From NCBI GenBank assembly GCA_020746835.1, contig JAGPNK010000005.1, positions 124,001-188,000 of the forward strand: DNA of 64,000 nt, read 5' to 3'. The notes below the pieces were generated by a model. The model was not told the DNA's origin, searched no databases, and saw nothing but the letters and a program-made list of their open reading frames with translations. The position numbers and the translations under genes were made by a program. The stretch comes from Stachybotrys elegans (lineage: Eukaryota; Ascomycota; Sordariomycetes; Hypocreales; Stachybotryaceae). Positions within the stretch are counted from its first letter, which is position 1. Every line of letters begins with the position of its first letter. Positions 53,932 to 64,000 of the stretch are shown here, piece after piece.

Positions 53932-55016
53932 ATGGACGTGGTCCTCGAAATCGCCGACGGGCTCTTCTTCGACCGCATATACTCCAATGTCCTGCCTGCG
54001 CCTCTCCATCCCGCCAATTCCACCTATGCTGGCCTCCCTGTCCACCAGCCCTACCAGTTCAAGCCTGCATCGCGCTACATATCTCTAGCGCCTGGCGACT
54101 ATGTCGATGGCTCTGCATTGGCGCGCGATGACCCTCTGAGGCAGTTCATCAGCCTCTACCTCCTCACCGCGTAAGTCCAACCCTCGCGCTGTGCGTGCCC
54201 GTCACCAGCGCCCATACTGACTGTGCCGCCAGCATCCTCGGACTCATCCTCTACTTCGTCTTCGCTTCCCTGTCCTACGTCTTCATCTTTGACCACCGCA
54301 CTTTCCAACACCCTCGCTACCTCAAGAACCAAGTCGCCCTTGAGATCCGCCAGTCTGTCGAATCCGTCCCCTTCATGAGCCTGCTCACCGTCCCCTTCTT
54401 CCTGCTCGAGGTTCGCGGCTACTCCAAGCTCTACGACCACACTTCGGAGGGCCCCGGCCCATGGTACAACTGGGCGCAGTTCCTCTTCTTCTTCGCCTTT
54501 ACCGACTTTGGCGTTTACTGGATTCACCGCGGCCTCCACCACCCTCGCATCTACAAGCACCTGCACAAGGCTCACCACAAGTGGATCATGCCCACCCCCT
54601 ACGCCGCAATTGCCTTCCACCCCGTCGATGGCTGGGCTCAGTCTGTTCCCTACCACCTGTTCCCTCTCTTCTTCCCCATGCAGAAGTGGGCTTACGTCGC
54701 CGCCTTCTTCTTCGTCCAGATCTGGACCATCATGATCCACGACGGCGAGTACGTGGCCAACAACCCCATCATCAACGGCTCCGCCTGCCACAGCGTTCAC
54801 CACTTCGCATTCAACTACAACTACGGCCAGTACTTTACTCTCTGGGATCGCATCGGTGGAAGCTACCGAAAGCCCGGCGAGGAGCTCTTCAACAAGGACT
54901 CCAAGATGTCGAGCTCCACCTGGAGCAAGCAGACCAAGGAGGCTGACAGCATGATGAAGGACATCGAGGGCAAGGACGACCGTGTCTACCTGACCGAGGA
55001 TAAGAAGACGCAGTAA
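53932..55016 (+). CDS. ERG3: C-5 sterol desaturase
   Basis: Exons 53932-54170 and 54233-55016 give 340 aa. It is an integral ER membrane protein with several hydrophobic helices (GLILYFVFASLSYVFIF; MSLLTVPFFLLEV; FLFFFAFTDFGVYWI). The three histidine clusters of the fatty acid hydroxylase/sterol desaturase family, which hold the di-iron centre, are all present: HRGLHH at 178-183, HKAHH at 191-195 and HSVHH at 266-270. The closing FNYNYGQYFTLWDRIGGSYR segment is diagnostic of ERG3. The enzyme introduces the C-5(6) double bond of ergosterol using oxygen and cytochrome b5. Fungi often have two ERG3 paralogues; which one this is cannot be told. No sign of damage. Confidence 0.92.
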
Positions 55017-55764
55017 GCCAATCACCAGGCAGCTTCACTGTACATATTAGCATTGGAAAGGAGTAATCAGAGGTGCATTTCATTATTAGAGGAATGTCAT
55101 GACGAAGCCGGCAGCACTACACTACGAATATACTTAATACATTATTGATCGTTAAGCAAGCCATTGTCCAAAGCCATTGTCGCGATTGTATTGGTGCCTC
55201 GCCCCATTTGAACCCAATCGCAAGGCATAATTCCTCAAGAGTAGAACCTAATGCTTAGCATCAGAACGGGAGCCGGGTGTGGTGCGAGGCAGAAGACGGC
55301 CCTCGCGAACTTGCCGTGCGCTTGAGCAAAGGTTCCGCTGGGACTGGACCCATCTCGGACGACAGTCGCGATGAGGTGGTTTTGGAGATTCTCACCAACC
55401 CCTTTCGCGCCGATGCCGGCGTTTTCCTCGCTGAGACGTTGCACGCCGCCAACGCCCGAGGTGAAGCATCTCGGGACAGCCCAGTGTTCCCGCCACCATC
55501 ATGGCCTCGCGCAGAGACTCTCATGGTCGCGCCGGTCTCCTCGCCATAATTTCTGGGTCCGGGAACACTAACATCTCGAGAGTATCCCCCAAACTCGGAA
55601 TACTCGTCCATGTGCTTGTCGACAGACTTGGGCGCCAGCGACATGGTTGCCAACCCATGATTAAGTCGCCCAGCGGCAATGCGCAACGCCCAAATTACGA
55701 ACACCACAGACACTGCACGCTAGTATGCGACTGTATTTTTGTAAAAGCAATATGCCAGAACCGT
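55017..55764. other. Intergenic between convergent genes
   Basis: 3' regions of ERG3 (+) and the peptide transporter (-). A minus-strand frame at 55261-55713 has no recognisable content and is not supported. Confidence 0.5.
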
Positions 55765-57693
55765 TTAATCTTCTCCCTCAGCCTCGTGATTTCCCTCCTG
55801 CTGAGCTGGTTCAGTACCGTCATACTTGTGGAAAATTAGCCAGAAAAGTACTGCAAATATCGTCATGACTCCGGCCAAAGAAGAGAACAGAATGACCAGC
55901 CAGGGATTCCTCGAGACTTGACCTAAGGCAATACCTATGGCAGCTCCTGCTGCAGCTGACAGGTTCTGTAGAGCCTGTACCATGGCTTTGAGATTGGTTG
56001 GAGCTTCTGTGTAGGTATACTCGTTGAGAGCGACCATTCCGAGAATTTCTCCAATAGCGAGTATGAAGAGATAAGGGGTCTGGAGCCAGATGTTGACATT
56101 ATTAGGCAATCTCTCGTTAGAACCTGGGTGAGGCGTTGCGGCAGGACACTCCAGAGGATACTCGTAACATGGGCCGCTTGAGTATATGACCTGTTGGATT
56201 CCTGCAGCATACGCAATGGCAGCGGCAGTAAAGAAGAAAGCCACGGTCATGCGAATGATTGGCCCGAAAGCGATTTTGTTCTCTCGGAGGAACTTGAACA
56301 GGAAGTCCTGAATCAACGGGCCCATGATGATGCAGGCAACTGGGTTGAGTGCTTGGATCGTGTCGTTGGATATGCCTCGGGCTCGCATCTGAGCTGCCTG
56401 AGAGATGATGTTGGTGGTTGTCTGGTCGTAGCAGAGCCAGAAGATGATGAAGAAAAGAATAACCCGGCAGCCCTTGAGGCCTCGGCGCATCTCGTCGACA
56501 AAGGCACTCGTCCAGGGCACGTCACGGTCGTGCAGTAGCTTTTGACGCATGGGGTCTGCTGCGTCCAGGCGAAACTTGGATCGGCAGGCAATCATGATGA
56601 CCTGACCTGCTTGGATAAGAATGTTGCCTTCTGGCGGCAGCTTGACTGTGCAGTAGTTCAGCATCAATGGGAGCAAGGCGGGTTGCCTGGCGTACTCACC
56701 CAACCTCCGATGCAACACAATGACAGGTATGATGGTCACAAACAGAATGCCTGTAGGCACCAGGAATGCCAACCAAAAGCCGACATGTCTCTCGAGCAAG
56801 GTGGTAGCTATTATTGCCATGGACGCCACGTTTACCATCCTGAAGGAAATGAGTCGACGATCAAGCCAAGGAGGCTCGTATAACGCACCAATAGTACCCA
56901 TTGAAGACGTACTGGACAGAGAGCTGCCGCTCGGTCACGACCAGCTCTCCCTTCTTATTTCTCTTCACTCGAGGCTCGTGTTCGGGAATCTGATCGGCTG
57001 AGAGCAGGTAAGCGTGTTGATACAACCGAGATATCCAGCAATCACGACATACCAATGAATGGGTACATGACTGCTGATAGACCACCATGACCAAGGCCAG
57101 TCAGGAACATGGTGACAATGAGGCCTGGGAGACCAGCGCCCCTTTCCAATGCGCTGGGGATCGATGTGAGTACCAAAACAGTATATCCCACGAGCAGGAG
57201 CCTGGCAGGATTAGCCCGAGAAATCGTTGACCGAACAATGACTGCTCTCACCCGAGACTAATGTGCATCGTCGTATGACGCCCAAGCCAGGCATCCGAAA
57301 TGATTGCAAATGGTAAAGGTGCTAGATAGCGGAAAAAGAGGTAACCGCTCTGTATGGCCGTGGCAGTGGACTGTCCGAGACCGAGGGCACCAGGCAACAA
57401 TGGGTTGCCAGGTTCATTTTGGAGATAATTCTCTACACACTCTCAGTACTGGAATAGCGACCTATGCTGGGAGCCAGCATGTCTACACACGTACGCCATG
57501 TTACCGTGATGCCAAATTTGGCCAGATTCGAGGCCGCCCCCGTGAAGGTGAGGAGCCAAGCGGCGACAGGTATGTCATCTACTTCGTGAACCAGATCGCG
57601 GATCTCTTCCGGAGTAGCCTTTCGGGGATACTCGTCTTTGCCGGCTTCCTCAAAGGACGCTGCCCGTAGGACGGTGATATCTGACGCCTCCAT
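55765..57693 (-). CDS. POT/PTR2-family proton-coupled oligopeptide transporter
   Basis: Read leftward, exons 57693-57495, 57432-57252, 57201-57053, 56997-56889 and 56839-55765 give 570 aa. The N-terminal 45 residues are polar. The first helices include NLAKFGITVTWQNYLQNEPGNPLLPGALGLGQ, corresponding to the FERF..YG..Q region of PTR2; the usual ExxER motif is modified. Then come SGYLFFRYLAPLPFAIISDAWLGRHTTM, FNGYYWMVNVASMAII (the PTR FYxxINxG-like signature, with YWMVNV) and LLEKxxx-type later helices ending in TIFAVLFWLIFHKYDG. Family members import di- and tripeptides with protons; some relatives export or import peptide natural products. It is the leftmost of the peptide-related genes at the right end of the window. 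Confidence 0.85.
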
Positions 57694-58264
57694 GGACTGA
57701 GCCGTAGCTGCTCGTTTCACCGGAAGAGTAAGAAGAAGAAAAAAGGGAGGGGGAGAGAAAGAGATTCCCGTTCTGGAGAGAAGCGAAATCTGCTGGCGGG
57801 GATCCAACAACCTAGACAAATTCTCACCCGAGGCCCTGCTGAAAAAAAGGCCACAGGGGTCACCGCCATCTAACGTGTGAGTAACGTAAGGGATATACCA
57901 GTGTCACATTCAGAGCAAAAGTCCCAACAGCGCAGCGCAAGATAAAGAAGCGGGCGCCAATCGCCGCCTGCATCGACTAAGCCCTATGCATGGGTCACAG
58001 GGATTCGGGATTCTAGATACTGCCAACACTCAGAGGCAATGCCGACGGGCCTCATCATTTGTTGTAGAGGAACAAGGCCACACCAAACACGCAAGCCCAA
58101 GCGGAATGGGGGGCGGATTGCAGGATGGCAAAAGTGCATGCATGCCTGATGTTACCTCGTAATCTTTGGAACGAAAGCCGTCGGATTGGATAACCAGAGC
58201 TGCAGTTATGTACGACGCAGGTCATGTACAGATAAGCTTAAGTCCATAATTGGCCGTTCTATGT
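57694..58264. other. Intergenic, no gene seen
   Basis: Promoter of the peptide transporter gene and 3' region of the iminopeptidase gene. No coding content. Confidence 0.5.
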
Positions 58265-59262
58265 CTACAGCTCCTTTATCCCCGGTTTCTGCACGACGCC
58301 GCCGCCGAGAAACGCCGCAAGCTCGTGCATGTACTTTTCCCGTTGGTCCACATGGGTGAAATGCGCCGCATCGCTAAACTTGATCCATGATGCGTCTGGT
58401 ATCTCGTCGAAAAAGGGCTGCATGGCAACATCTTGAGCCTCGTCCTGGTCGGCGTTCATCAGCAGCGTGGGGACCTTGATCTTGTGCAGCTCGGGGATGA
58501 TGGTCCAGTTGCGCAGCAGACCTGTAATAGTGAGCTCGCTAGGACCGTACCTGTCCAGCAAATGTCAGCTTGTCACTTCATCTGCCCGCCGGGTGCTTGG
58601 GCCTGGACTCACATGGTGCTATACGTGGTTCCATCTGCGGCGAACCAGTCCAGGGCGGCTTGAACTTCGGGGGCCGGCCAGGGTTGGGCGAGACTCAGGT
58701 GGCGCTGGTAGAACAGCTCAATGGCAGCGTTGTACTCGTCGCTTGTAAAGTCTCCCGTCTCTTCTGCTCGGGCGAGAGCCTCCTGCGTCTCGTCGGGCAG
58801 CTGGTATCGAAGGGCTGCGATGCCAGTACGCCAAACGTCCATGCTGGCCAGGCTGTTGGAGATGACGAGGCGGCGGAGGTTGGAGCTCGAAGGCGTGACG
58901 GCCCACTCGGCAGCCAGCATACCACCCCATGAGTGCCCGTAGATGTCGATTGGCCTCGTGTCCAGGCCGAGGTGATGGAGCAGGTTGTCGAGCTCGCTCC
59001 GAAACAGATCTACCGACCAGAACGTCTCGTTGCCGTTCTGCTCTGGGTAGTGGGACGACTTGCCGTTCCCAATCTGATCATAAAAGACAAGAGGGACGGA
59101 GAGATCAGTAAGCGGCAGCAGGTAGTCGTGGCAAGCCCCCGGGCCTCCATGCAGCACGATCAGCGGTGTCTGGTTTCCGTGAAGGTTTCCGAAGCTCCTG
59201 TACCACGTCTGGGCGGGCTCTGCCAAGCCAGGCACGTTGAAAAGGGCCGTCCCCTCACACAT
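58265..59262 (-). CDS. Proline-iminopeptidase-like alpha/beta hydrolase (peptidase S33)
   Basis: Read leftward, exons 59262-58613 and 58550-58265 (GTGAGT donor) give 311 aa. The fold opens with LFNVPGLAEPAQTWYRSFG, then the oxyanion HGGPG at 38-42 and VFYDQIGNGKSS (DQxGxGxS), both hallmarks of prolyl iminopeptidases. The nucleophile is Ser111 in GHSWGG, the acid Asp is in LLMNADQDEAQ, and the base His is in SDAAHFTHVD. No signal peptide is apparent, so it is probably cytosolic. S33 peptidases release an N-terminal proline, and some act as amidases or esterases in peptide metabolite pathways. It sits between the peptide transporter and the UstYa oxidase on the same strand. Confidence 0.85.
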
Positions 59263-59988
59263 TCTTGGCGTCCTCTTCTCTTGTCCTGAGATCGGCAGTG
59301 TGGTGCGCTTTGGGATTTCGGACGCGAGGATGCGGGCGGCAGAGTCAGTTTGTTAGGGTCGTATTGCTGCAGGCACTGTTCCTCCATACCATGGCTCGTT
59401 CGGGGGCGGCGGGCGGTAAGAGCGCTTTATATTCACCTGCGCTGCGGGTTGGCTGGATTGCAAGCACCACTTGATGCGATGCGATGCGTATGATGGGCCA
59501 ACATGTAGGCCCCGGCCCTCCACACAGCTTGGCTGATAACCAAGCCCGGACAAGAGATCCTGCCGAGCCGGGACGTGACAAGGTTATGATGCTTGTTTGA
59601 TAGCCCCCAATTCTGCCTCCACCTCCCTTGCTACATGAGCTTGCCACCTCCACCCAGGAACCTTCAGGGAACCTTCAGGATACTACACGCCACTTTGGAG
59701 CAATTATTGGACGGCTGAACTACCCCCCATCCCATCCTCTGTGACCCTCTGCTTTACACTCCCTGGTCAATGACCGATATTTGCTCCGAGCCCCAGTCGT
59801 ATAAGCCAGGGATTGTGGCGATGAGCGCTCTTTCTTGGTCTTCTGGTGCCTTGAAATGGTTCAACTCTTATCAAAGGTGTATTCTGCGTGCTGGGATCAT
59901 CCCAGCATACCCCCGGCGGTGTGTGTCTCCTTACCACCCATCGACGAAGTACTGTACTCAAGTACTCGCTCTAGCTGTCTACCTACCT
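59263..59988. other. Intergenic, no gene seen
   Basis: Promoter of the iminopeptidase gene and 3' region of the UstYa gene. The phrase GGAACCTTCAGG is directly repeated near 59658-59680. Confidence 0.45.
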
Positions 59989-60989
59989 CTAAGGCAGGGA
60001 TGTGTCTGTAGATACAGGCGATTTATGGGGCTTCTCAAACGGCCCTGCCTTGACCTTGTACCCGCTGGGCAGAAGCCGTTTCCTTGCCCAGCCATCCAGT
60101 GCCTCCCAGTTGATGCATACCGTGTCTGACTTGGAGCGCAGCTCCTTGTTTGGGTCCGCCGTGTGGTCGCCAATCCAGTACGCAGTGTAGATTGATGGGT
60201 CGGCTTTGCACATTAGGCTTCGCCGGATCGTATCAATGCAGTGCGCTGTCATGGTCAGTTTGATGTGGACATCCAAGCAGGAGCAGAGTCAATCTCACAG
60301 AGATGAAACAGCCGAAAAGTTTTTGAATCCTCTGTCGCATTTTGGTAGTAGCGGTCTGGCATTAGGCTGGCTCGTAGACTGTCCTGTAGTTTCTACAATC
60401 AATAGCTGGTCGGCAGCTCATCGGATTTCTTCAATCATACCAAACAGTGTAATTCGTGGTAAACGGACAAGACCGAGACATAGCCACCCCCGGAGGGCTG
60501 CACCATCTCCGTGTTGATGTCCGCATGTGCTTTTTGCTGCTCCTCTAGGCTGGTCCTGATGTTGAGAGCTGTGCGTCGTCAGTAAAGACTGTGCAAAGCC
60601 GAGATAGACTGATGACGAACGCTCCAGCAGTTTCTGCCAAGCCTCATCGACTTCATCTGTATGTCCCATAAACACAGGGTCTTCGCCAAAGTATAACTGT
60701 TTGCGCCTGTATGATATCGCTTCGTTTGCGGGTGCTGCCATACGTTAGCCATGAATCCGTTCTCACCCTTGCCCATAGAAATCTCACAGTAAGGCTGCGG
60801 CACCCGAGAGACAATTTGCCATATAAGAATTGGACACGATACCAGAGTGTACGCCAGCAATACGCCAAGCAACACTCGTCGCCACCGATTTGAAGCTGTC
60901 GATGTATGTTGACTCGTCAACAACGGGCCTTCGAGTAAGGGCTCGTGGCTCTCCGTCGACTCTGAAGAGTACTTCTCTCGGTTCTCCAT
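59989..60989 (-). CDS. UstYa-like (DUF3328) oxidase of ribosomal-peptide biosynthesis
   Basis: Read leftward, exons 60989-60788, 60734-60621, 60568-60441, 60392-60299 and 60245-59989 give 264 aa. After a polar N-terminus comes one membrane anchor at about 38-58 (RVLLGVLLAYTLVSCPILIW), then YSPANEAISY and a DEVDEAWQKLLEPLNIRTS segment. Both copies of the HxxHC signature are present: HELHC at 143-147 and HLSHC at 178-182, the latter running into HCIDTIRRSLMCKADPSIYT. All are hallmarks of the UstYa family, whose members carry out oxidative cyclisation, hydroxylation or halogenation of peptides such as ustiloxin, phomopsin and cyclochlorotine. Introns are 48-53 bp and keep frame. It is divergent from, and 662 bp away from, the repeat precursor gene. 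Confidence 0.9.
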
Positions 60990-61651
60990 TTCGCAGATTT
61001 TGCTCACTGGACAAGCAACACCAAGTTGGAGAGCGTGGATGAAGAGTTGAAGGACGGCTGAGCGGGTCGCAAGACGTATCCTTGGGATATCTATTACCTT
61101 CTCCGTCCTGTGGAAAGACCCCATGGCTAAATGTAGTAATCAAGATATTGATGTTACATTCGCATTTTGAGATTTGGGACTTTGGTCATGAGATAGCGAG
61201 GTAAACGAGCTACAGAGTGGCGAATGTTCATAACTTGGTCCATTATTGGTAGACCAAACCGACTGTAACGCTGCCAAGCACGAGGTGATGCGCGTACGCG
61301 TTTGCACGTACGATCAAAGCAGCAGTCTATACCCAATTGGATAGCTCGGTAGAGTTGGAGTGTGCAGTTTGCTGCTATCCACCTGCGAGTTCTGGACTGG
61401 CCCAACTACCCCTGATGCATCCCACCATCATGCAGTTGGTGCAGTCCCTTCAGATAAGCTTGTTGACCGGTGGGCCTGGTCAGACCAAGGGAGCAGAATG
61501 TAACGGACTTGTGCTTCCGTGAGTAGAGATTTTTATAAGTACAAGCGTCTGGTCTGGGCCAGTCAATCTCGACGGCGTATACCGGATCTCCAAGTACAGC
61601 TTCTTCATCAAGTCAGAAAACAAACATCACCAACCCACAAAGCCTCTCACA
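60990..61651. promoter_or_regulatory. Bidirectional promoter of the UstYa gene and the precursor gene
   Basis: 661 bp between the two divergent ATGs. The only supported element is TATAAG at 61534-61539, 118 bp before the precursor ATG. A divergent precursor/oxidase pair with a shared promoter suggests joint regulation (inference). A minus-strand frame at 61154-61405 is not convincing. Confidence 0.55.
61534..61539 (+). promoter_or_regulatory. TATA-like box of the precursor-peptide gene
   Basis: TATAAG preceded by a T-run, 118 bp before the ATG. The leader between has a CA-rich stretch just before the start (CCTCTCACAATG). Confidence 0.5.
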
Positions 61652-61904
61652 ATGCAAATCCTCAATCTTGTGCTCTTCACCTTCGCGCTCGGTGCTACCG
61701 CAGCGCCAGCTGGTATGTGATAACAACAACATGGCATCTCACCATAGTCTAATCTTAGCAGCCATCAAGAGGGCCAGCGTTCTGCCCCCCCTGGTCGATG
61801 CTGGAACTGAGAAGCGGGCCAGCGTTCTGCCTCCTCTCGTAGACGCTGGTATTGAGAAACGAGCTAGCGTTCTGCCTCCGCTGGTCGATGCTGGCATCGA
61901 GTAG
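61652..61904 (+). CDS. Kex2-processed repeat precursor peptide (dikaritin-like RiPP precursor)
   Basis: Exons 61652-61712 and 61762-61904 give 67 aa. The first exon encodes a signal peptide (MQILNLVLFTFALGATAAPA). The second encodes three tandem 15-residue units, each starting with the Kex2 site Lys-Arg: KRASVLPPLVDAGTE (61767-61811) and two copies of KRASVLPPLVDAGIE (61812-61856, 61857-61901), followed at once by the stop. Units 2 and 3 differ at nine bases, all silent. This design (secretory leader plus KR-flanked identical cores) is that of fungal ribosomally made peptides matured in the secretory pathway. The acceptor is a TAGCAG tandem (61758 or 61761), so an extra Ala is possible. The core, ASVLPPLVDAGIE, has no aromatic residue and a Pro-Pro pair. 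Product unknown. Confidence 0.9.
61767..61901 (+). repeat. Three 45-bp in-frame coding repeats
   Basis: Three exact-length units with no spacer. Nucleotide differences are 8 (unit 1 vs 2) and 9 (unit 2 vs 3), yet only one residue differs (Thr to Ile at position 14). That is the pattern expected under selection on the peptide itself, not of recent duplication. Confidence 0.9.
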
Positions 61905-62162
61905 GACAAGGCATAGCCTCATGTTTCTGCAGGACATTCACAGCGTGGAGGATAAATGGTAAAGCTGAAGTAGCCTAGACGTTTGTGTGTTTCTGGACGA
62001 CCAAGCAATAGATACTTCAAGTTTGCCTGCAACTTTCTCTGTTTTGTGATGATCGTTCTAGGACAGGCTTGACGTTTAACTAATTTGTCATTCAAAAACT
62101 CCTTGGGGTCACCCGAACAACTTAGGAGTACTTCTACGGAAGAGCAATGTACAATAAATCCC
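61905..62162. other. Intergenic between convergent precursor and SAT4-like genes
   Basis: 258 bp of 3' sequence; nothing further seen. Confidence 0.5.
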
Positions 62163-63415
62163 CTATCCACTTTGTGTCGTTTGTGTCGTGGATGGCTGGA
62201 GCTCTATTCCCTTCTGTTGCGAACCATACCTGTCATGAAGTTTTATGTAGTTTGAAGGGCCTCTGCTACTCATATCGGATTGACCAGCCGTTCCGTAAGA
62301 ATTGCCGACTGTGCGGCGATTTGCGTCATCGACCCTGAGGAATCCGGACTCCAGACTGAGCAGTACAGGCCGCAGGAATGGCACACATGCAGCCATGATG
62401 CTGGTTGCCTGAATTGCCTGCTTGCACACGACAACGACCCAGACGTCAATGGTGAAGCTATTTCCCAAATCAAGGCGTTGGAGAGCAACTAGATAGATAA
62501 TTGTTGCTACAAGAACGCTGCAGTCACCATCGGTTAGCAAGTAAAAAGATCAGGACATGTTGCCATGGTGGCTCACATGATGCGAGCCCAGAAGGCGCAT
62601 AATATTGTTATTCGCTGGCCGATTCGCACATTCAGCGGAAGAACGATGACGGTTGGAAGAGCGATCAAGATAACATCGGTCAACATATTCATGATTCCAA
62701 TATAACTTCGCCCCATAATCTGCGGCCAATGTTAGATGGTTGGATACTGGCATGCTTGTGATGGACAGAACATACTATATTGGTGCATTGCCGGTTTCGG
62801 ACATCCCATCTGTCTGGAGCCGGACACTGGAATGCAATAATGAAGATGGAAGAAACCATCCAGGCCGATACAAGCCCCCCGGTGATGGCAATGGCTATCC
62901 GGTGGCCACGGGCGGGGGTGATGTCGAGCAAGGAAAGGATAAGGGATGCTTTGACTGTCGCCAGTGTCAACACACTTAGCAATTCACTAGCGTATAGTGC
63001 CTGGAGATGGTGTTATTTTACAACACACTGCAAAGGGTTCGACAGCCATGCCTGAAAGCTTCGTTGGACTGTGCCATCTGCTATTCCTTCGGGGGAGGCT
63101 CCGATGTGCTTTCCCGGATCACTGACCAAGGCTGCCGTCTGCGCCGAAGCAAAGATCTATGCACGTAAAAGGGCCACATGTTAGGCTCAGTTGCGTTGTC
63201 ATTGCTGGGGCGAGATGTACCAGTGATAGGAGCAACAGCCCATCCGCCACGTTTGGGCGTCTTGATAAAGTCCATTTCGTGAGGAACTGCGAGATTACGA
63301 ATATGATGGAAAATGTCAGGCATAGCCAGGAGACGATCTGGACAACGGGCGAAAGATTGTCATCAGAAATACGGGGCCTGTCGGGCCCAGGCGGCAGCGG
63401 TGCGCTCATTGCCAC
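62163..63415 (-). CDS. SAT4-like fungal integral membrane protein (rhodopsin-like domain)
   Basis: Read leftward, exons 63415-63221, 63156-63052, 63000-62776, 62719-62577 and 62517-62163 give 340 aa. Seven hydrophobic helices are expected; those seen include VVQIVSWLCLTFSIIFVISQF, LLSVLTLATVKASLILSLLD, AIAITGGLVSAWMVSSIFIIAF, MLTDVILIALPTVIVLPL, and IVLVATIIYLVALQRL in the last exon. Conserved family phrases are DGLLLLSLIFASAQ, CPAPDRWD, QC..I and CAFWARI. The second intron (63001-63051) fits only with a GC donor (CAG|GCATGG) and a normal CAG acceptor. Function of the family is unknown; members occur near many fungal metabolite clusters and resemble PTH11-like receptors. It lies directly downstream of the precursor gene. 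Confidence 0.8.
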
Positions 63416-64000
63416 AAGGACGCAGGAGGTTGGCAGCGAACCATGAGAGAGGACTAGCCGATTGAGTGCGCGGCAGTAGACGTCTTATGGATATTTTGTA
63501 AGAATATCCCAAACTTGCTTGAAATTGTACCAACTCGAGTGCGTGTTCCTCTTTGCTCCTTCGAAGACTCTTGCGTCGTGGAAGCCTTGGATACCAACCC
63601 CTTCCCCTTGCTGTGCCTTTCAAAACCACGGCAGATGGCAAACCGCTGCCCCCAAAGTGATCGGCAAGTAGGAGGAGGATTGCGCCCGCTGTTGTTGGGG
63701 GGGGGGGGGGGGGGGGGGGGGTGTAAGAACAAGGTCGCATTGCATATCGCCCTGGCTCCCACACAGTTCGGAACGGATTCCACCAGGATCAAGGGTCATG
63801 CCATCCGCGATAAGCAATGGCACATGTTTAATGTAACCTCCCTGGGATGTGTTGGTTCTTTTCATTATGCACCTGTCGTACGACCTGCCACTTAGCGAAC
63901 TTGGGGGCGGCTCGCATCCGTTGCCAGGGCGTGATTGGAGCTTCCAAATGCAAAGGGGTGAAGCTGCAGTCGTCTTAGTAACATTATGAGGAGTGAGGAT
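63416..64000. other. Right-edge region without a gene, with a poly-G run
   Basis: No supportable frame. The minus-strand frames that look proline-rich (PPPPPPP) are an effect of the G run at 63697-63721. Confidence 0.55.
63697..63721. repeat. G25 homopolymer
   Basis: Twenty-five consecutive G residues, directly preceded by GTTGTT. Such runs are error-prone in sequencing and can form G-quadruplexes. Confidence 0.85.

Follow-up and report, generated by a model that had tools for sequence, protein, structure and literature searches.

The window, the whole stretch of 64,000 nucleotides analyzed here (C45:124001-188000 of the Stachybotrys elegans genome, which was searched as 43.4 Mb in 61 contigs), contains a predicted precursor gene (61652-61904, plus strand) that encodes 67 aa and is interrupted by a single 49-nt intron, and, divergently oriented, a gene of the UstYa/DUF3328 family. 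The two start codons are 662 bp apart, the spacing given in the initial annotation, which had proposed a new RiPP pathway for this locus; the observed gene pair is confirmed as real. The relevant features, in the order of their coordinates, are:

55765-56934, minus strand: PTR2 transporter, profile match; the gene probably extends to ~57903
58609-59352, minus strand: alpha/beta hydrolase, profile match, with a weaker piece at 58265-58564
59989-60989, minus strand: UstYa/DUF3328 gene, 261 aa, exons 60989-60788, 60734-60621, 60568-60441, 60383-60299 and 60245-59989
60990-61651, no strand assigned: divergent intergenic region of 662 bp in the coordinates of the gene models, presumed promoter of both genes
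61652-61712, plus strand: precursor exon 1, signal-like peptide MQILNLVLFTFALGATAAPA and the first base of codon 21, in agreement with public model P0001
61713-61761, plus strand: precursor intron, 49 nt, GTATGT...CAG; the public 67-aa model uses the acceptor at 61761
61762-61904, plus strand: precursor exon 2, AIKR and three cores, stop codon at 61902-61904
61773-61811, plus strand: core 1, ASVLPPLVDAGTE, preceded by KR
61818-61856, plus strand: core 2, ASVLPPLVDAGIE, preceded by KR at 61812-61817
61863-61901, plus strand: core 3, ASVLPPLVDAGIE, preceded by KR at 61857-61862 and ending at the stop codon
62689-63012, minus strand: fungal-rhodopsin-domain match, from a profile search

The alpha/beta hydrolase at 58609-59352 is, in our reading, a proline iminopeptidase, and the frames at 62163-62549 and 63119-63484, beside the rhodopsin-domain match, yielded no domain match. 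Further along, the flanking stretch L011 continues with an amino acid permease and a second alpha/beta hydrolase, which has an S33 aminopeptidase match; a PRISE reductase and a Band 7 protein come next. The PTR2 transporter and alpha/beta hydrolase (window 55765-59352, minus strand) are found on one side of the pair, and the permease and S33-type hydrolase (L011:974-4323, plus strand) on the other; these flanking transporters and hydrolases may serve in the uptake or trimming of peptides, or their presence could be a coincidence. Within the 662-bp region itself we detected one short palindrome, two short direct repeats and an inverted repeat whose perfect 10-nt arms are separated by 150 nt; none of these was regarded as meaningful.

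The precursor repeats and the UstYa protein

The gene model derived here for the precursor matches the public S. elegans model B0I35DRAFT_477216 (67 aa); the other possible acceptor of its intron, at 61758, would yield a protein of 68 aa. The protein consists of a hydrophobic signal-like start, AIKR and the series ASVLPPLVDAGTE-KR-ASVLPPLVDAGIE-KR-ASVLPPLVDAGIE. The three KR-flanked, near-identical cores of the initial annotation are thereby borne out, with the qualification that KR precedes each core and none follows the third, because core 3 runs up to the stop codon. The consensus of the 13-residue core is ASVLPPLVDAG(T/I)E, and its three KR-preceded copies give the protein the repeat organization of a KEP. 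As for the signal peptide attributed to the precursor, the hydrophobic, signal-like character of the start stands (best 12-mer 2.2 on the hydropathy scale, Ala-rich end), as judged by hydropathy and by eye only.

The three repeat units are 82-85% identical at the DNA level and vary in 9 of the 39 nucleotide columns. Seven of these nine columns are in codons for an unchanged amino acid (binomial P 0.0035, with ~29% of sites expected to be synonymous), and the remaining two both fall within the single Thr/Ile codon. The differences being mostly synonymous, the DNA of the units has drifted apart with the peptide preserved, and the repeats are demonstrably under selection. A repeat detector that requires at least three similar segments bounded by dibasic sites picked out the precursor locus alone in the final 9 kb of the window, and gave no hit in 40 mononucleotide shuffles of positions 54001-64000, in the stretch L035 of the same contig, which surrounds a tyrosinase gene, or in 124.5 kb of control DNA from the S. 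elegans genome.

The core contains two Pro, two Val, two Leu, one Asp and one Ile as aliphatic candidates for modification and is devoid of Tyr, Phe, Trp and His. Such a composition is by itself not improbable: at the combined Y/F/W/H frequency of 13.9%, taken from UstYa proteins, ~14% of random 13-mers are expected to lack all four residues. The computed [M+H]+ values of the linear unmodified 13-mers are 1280.7096 and 1268.6732.

The product of the UstYa gene is identical to the public protein B0I35DRAFT_477215 (P0002; 100% identity over 100% of the length) and matches Pfam family PF11807 over residues 32-233 with an E-value of 2.6e-41 (142.3 bits, cut-off 25). Its most hydrophobic 19-mer spans residues 39-57, and the two HxxHC motifs that mark the family are present as HELHC (143-147) and HLSHC (175-179), the latter visible only in the spliced sequence because the last intron splits the motif. 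Family membership and both motifs were thus correctly annotated at the outset, and the hydrophobic helix fits the membrane anchor named there. Among the 23 members of the UstYa clade, 17, the S. elegans protein included, carry both motifs in exact form; a single motif was found in P0015, P0017, P0020, P0023 and P0024, and none in P0018, all cases that involve gaps, an insertion or truncated models at the motif positions. The AlphaFold model of the protein, built from 21 sequences, is of low confidence (mean pLDDT 53.8) and places the motifs on two helices (140-155 and 166-190), an arrangement likewise described for CctR (PMC12435403). By analogy, the S. elegans protein may bind copper. A sequence search for solved structures of relatives produced no credible match (best E-value 0.51).

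Distribution of the two genes and other UstYa loci of the genome

The relatives of the UstYa protein (P0003-P0022; 40-58% identity) come from Clonostachys, Xylariales (Xylaria), Botrytis, Melanomma, Dothideomycetes and other fungi, whereas the protein searches recovered no precursor relative from any other species. A word-based search of 5.8 billion proteins with the 68-aa form of the precursor returned the precursor itself as the one candidate. A search with the repeat region in a 121-aa frame, which admits longer proteins and in which scoring was confined to the 7991 candidates with the most words in common, likewise gave only the precursor itself; searches of this type would miss short, diverged or unannotated precursors. 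No second copy of the precursor was detected elsewhere in the S. elegans genome, where the paralogues of the UstYa protein are alike only distantly, as judged from tblastn pieces. In the open-licence literature, we found no paper that mentions any of three pieces of the core and none that joins Stachybotrys, RiPP and UstYa. The earlier statement that the core matches no known one therefore holds for the protein searches and the open-licence papers, with the KEP-plus-UstYa layout itself being known.

The genome contains at least 28 UstYa matches, which were grouped into at least 18 loci, and 9.9 kb was examined around each of 17 loci other than that of the window. Frames with Kex2-type repeats were identified beside UstYa genes at six of these:

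L013:2186-2875, minus strand: Kex2-type repeat frame
L014:2238-2960, minus strand: Kex2-type repeat frame
L018:3436-3738, plus strand: Kex2-type repeat frame
L020:6914-7237, plus strand: Kex2-type repeat frame
L021:4509-4886, minus strand: Kex2-type repeat frame
L024:1418-1852, minus strand: Kex2-type repeat frame

With the window included, 7 of 18 UstYa loci have a repeat frame nearby, whereas the examined 9.9-kb stretch contains none at 11 of the 17 others. The 124.5 kb of control DNA, which is free of such frames, amounts to 12.6 stretches of this size (55 kb of the window itself, two flanking stretches and five others taken at round coordinates); the comparison of 6/17 UstYa loci with 0/12 control stretches gives a Fisher P of 0.026, just a guide given that the controls are few. 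At the six loci, a distance of ~0.6-1.8 kb separates the repeat frame from the UstYa match closest to it, which is oriented divergently in three cases, in tandem in two and convergently in one; a divergent UstYa match is present somewhere in the stretch at five of the six. The core types of these frames are EARHHQGGRAKGNG, AYGRHTDDVS, QYQLVVSQHGIEDG, DENLLDKKIGLSTDWI, EEIDVADAF and DEDxNVIYPDY. One representative core from each of the six loci contains Tyr, Phe, Trp or His, in contrast to the core in the window. Three separate UstYa loci are located within ~32 kb of contig C23 (C23:1884010-1915573).

Comparison with dikaritins and the possible modification of the core

A KEP next to a UstYa gene is the genetic hallmark of dikaritin-type RiPPs, for which DUF3328 is considered the class-defining enzyme (as cited in PMC12048977). 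In the 2020 survey of 1461 strains, a DUF3328 gene was reported within 15 genes of 1758 of the 7878 KEPs, with the count of DUF3328 genes peaking at the position that adjoins the KEP gene (PMC7329392), and nine KEP-plus-UstYa clusters are reported for Venturia inaequalis (PMC9632046), although by 2022 the dikaritins reported numbered only five (PMC10512285). Given these survey counts and the repeat frames at 6 of the 17 other UstYa loci of S. elegans, the designation of a new RiPP pathway was an overstatement; the pair is a good candidate for a dikaritin-type RiPP pair of a kind already known. In common with ustiloxin, phomopsin and asperipin-2a, the locus combines repeat cores separated by putative Kex2 sites with a nearby gene of the UstYa family; the signal-like start of the precursor would correspond to their signal peptide, and the presence of just one UstYa gene is shared with asperipin-2a (PMC7329392). 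The likeness to these systems that was originally proposed holds for the gene pair and is weaker for the chemistry: the rings of ustiloxin, phomopsin and asperipin are described as closed by ether bonds to the aromatic part of Tyr (PMC7329392), whereas the S. elegans core has no aromatic residue. Without Tyr, a Tyr ether of the ustiloxin type is impossible. Phomopsin further differs in its five UstYa genes and Tyr-based ring (PMC7329392), compared with a single UstYa gene and no Tyr here.

The older definition of dikaritin clusters, since relaxed, asked for the cluster to include a tyrosinase, methyltransferase, transporter or peptidase (as cited in PMC12048977). The tyrosinase match closest to the S. 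elegans pair is ~26.7 kb to the right of the precursor and belongs to a tyrosinase-domain gene with a signal-like start (L035:4062-5513, plus strand; C45:212062-213513 on the contig of the window). This tyrosinase (match at C45:212605-213333) was set aside as a cluster member because it is distant, is separated from the pair by unrelated-looking genes and would face a core that contains no Tyr. The genome contains a single match to S41 peptidases, on contig C23 rather than on that of the pair, and the nearest P450 on contig C45 is at position 527110 among the matches listed, from a search in which 92 of 352 candidates were scored.

On balance, we consider it somewhat more likely than not that the two genes form a minimal dikaritin-type RiPP locus in which cores freed by Kex2 would be oxidized by the UstYa protein at aliphatic residues. 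Under this scenario, the signal peptide would take the precursor into the secretory pathway, Kex2 would cleave after each KR and Kex1-type trimming would strip the KR, so as to release two copies of ASVLPPLVDAGIE and one of ASVLPPLVDAGTE. The N-terminal helix of the UstYa protein would anchor the enzyme in a Golgi-type membrane, facing the lumen, where a two-copper site formed by both HxxHC motifs would, with O2, oxidize C-H bonds of the peptide. The copper chemistry is extrapolated from CctR, which is described as a membrane-bound enzyme that has a binuclear copper centre, consumes O2 and electrons in the hydroxylation of C(sp3)-H, with 2-aminobutyrate as its target, and loses all activity when motif residues are changed (PMC12435403). 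The S. elegans protein resembles the published description of CctR in having one membrane helix and the motif HxxHC(x)nHxxHC, and differs in that the substrate of CctR is a non-ribosomal cyclic peptide (PMC12435403), as opposed to the presumed ribosomal one here. Because the core lacks aromatic residues, the likeliest change would be desaturation or hydroxylation of Val, Leu, Pro, Asp or Ile rather than an aryl-ether crosslink. The formation of dehydro-Ile, dehydro-Asp and dehydro-Pro is attributed to PhomYc, PhomYd and PhomYe, respectively (PMC10880069), desaturation by three UstYa homologues being described also in PMC10512285, and all three of these target residues are found in the S. elegans core. 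By analogy with these systems, we infer Kex2 processing, secretion, action of the enzyme on the peptide and the kind of change it makes, as well as any bioactivity.

The agreement of the gene models with public proteins, the synonymous bias of the repeats, the intact motifs, the adjacency of the two genes and the association at 6 of 17 other loci all speak for this minimal dikaritin-type locus. Counted against it are the failure of the protein searches to find a homologous precursor in other species, with the UstYa clade being widespread at 40-58% identity, the remoteness of tyrosinase and S41 peptidase genes, the low confidence of the structure model and the 11 of 17 other UstYa loci with no repeat frame. 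The occurrence of the clade without the precursor could mean that the enzyme has an older substrate unrelated to it, so the coupling of the two genes rests on adjacency and the within-genome association. The survey further reports Tyr in 65.6% of the repeated sequences of KEPs near DUF3328, compared with 38.2% of the others (PMC7329392), a bias that favors Tyr-bearing substrates and counts against a Tyr-less core, although Tyr is common in this set and not universal.

A serious rival, albeit an unlikely one in our estimate, is that the precursor gives rise to a linear, unmodified secreted peptide with a signaling or defense role, with the adjacent UstYa protein uncoupled from it or acting elsewhere. 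A DUF3328 gene is missing from the vicinity of 6120 of the 7878 fungal KEPs (PMC7329392), many KEP peptides are described as linear and minimally modified (PMC9769878), and UstYa proteins function also in non-ribosomal pathways such as that of cyclochlorotine (PMC12435403); the core without Tyr, Phe, Trp or His and the contrast between the widespread UstYa clade and the precursor of a single species fit this explanation as well. Linear KEP peptides such as alpha-pheromones, candidalysin and agaricomycete KEPs derive from Kex2-processed secreted precursors (PMC9769878), as the S. elegans peptide presumably would, but the KEP genes of the mating-factor and pheromone type have, with three exceptions, no accompanying DUF3328 genes (PMC7329392), whereas here a UstYa gene adjoins the precursor. 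The immediate divergent adjacency and the repeat frames at 6 of the 17 other UstYa loci, as opposed to none in the controls, argue for coupling. Closure of an aliphatic macrocycle by the UstYa protein, for example through a bond between an oxidized carbon of Val, Leu, Pro or Ile and either the oxygen of Ser or the carboxylate of a side chain, appears more improbable still: the family is implicated in macrocyclization as well as in hydroxylation and halogenation (PMC12435403), and Ser, Asp and Glu of the core are possible oxygen donors, but the literature examined yielded no aromatic-free UstYa ring, and the three KEP rings described in PMC7329392 are Tyr ethers. It seems very improbable that the repeat frame has no function as a gene or that the pair is silent; only one public member is available, but the synonymous bias among the repeats, the GT-AG intron, the signal-like start and the independent public gene model all contradict this explanation.

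The most far-reaching reading would be an aromatic-free dikaritin, in which a lone UstYa protein oxidizes only aliphatic residues of a 13-residue ribosomal core (to dehydro- or hydroxy-Val, -Leu, -Pro, -Asp or -Ile, or to an aliphatic ring) in a two-gene RiPP pathway with an undescribed type of product; we put this forward tentatively, as a possibility with somewhat less than an even chance. Should UstYa-dependent aliphatic oxidation be shown, the unusual core would make the pair a new variant. Such a one-enzyme, aromatic-free pair, free of the tyrosinase and the Tyr chemistry of ustiloxin and phomopsin, would be a clean case for the question of whether UstYa alone can oxidize aliphatic residues in a ribosomal peptide. 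S. elegans lives as a mycoparasite on Rhizoctonia solani (PMC4413796), so the peptide could conceivably play a part in its ecology.
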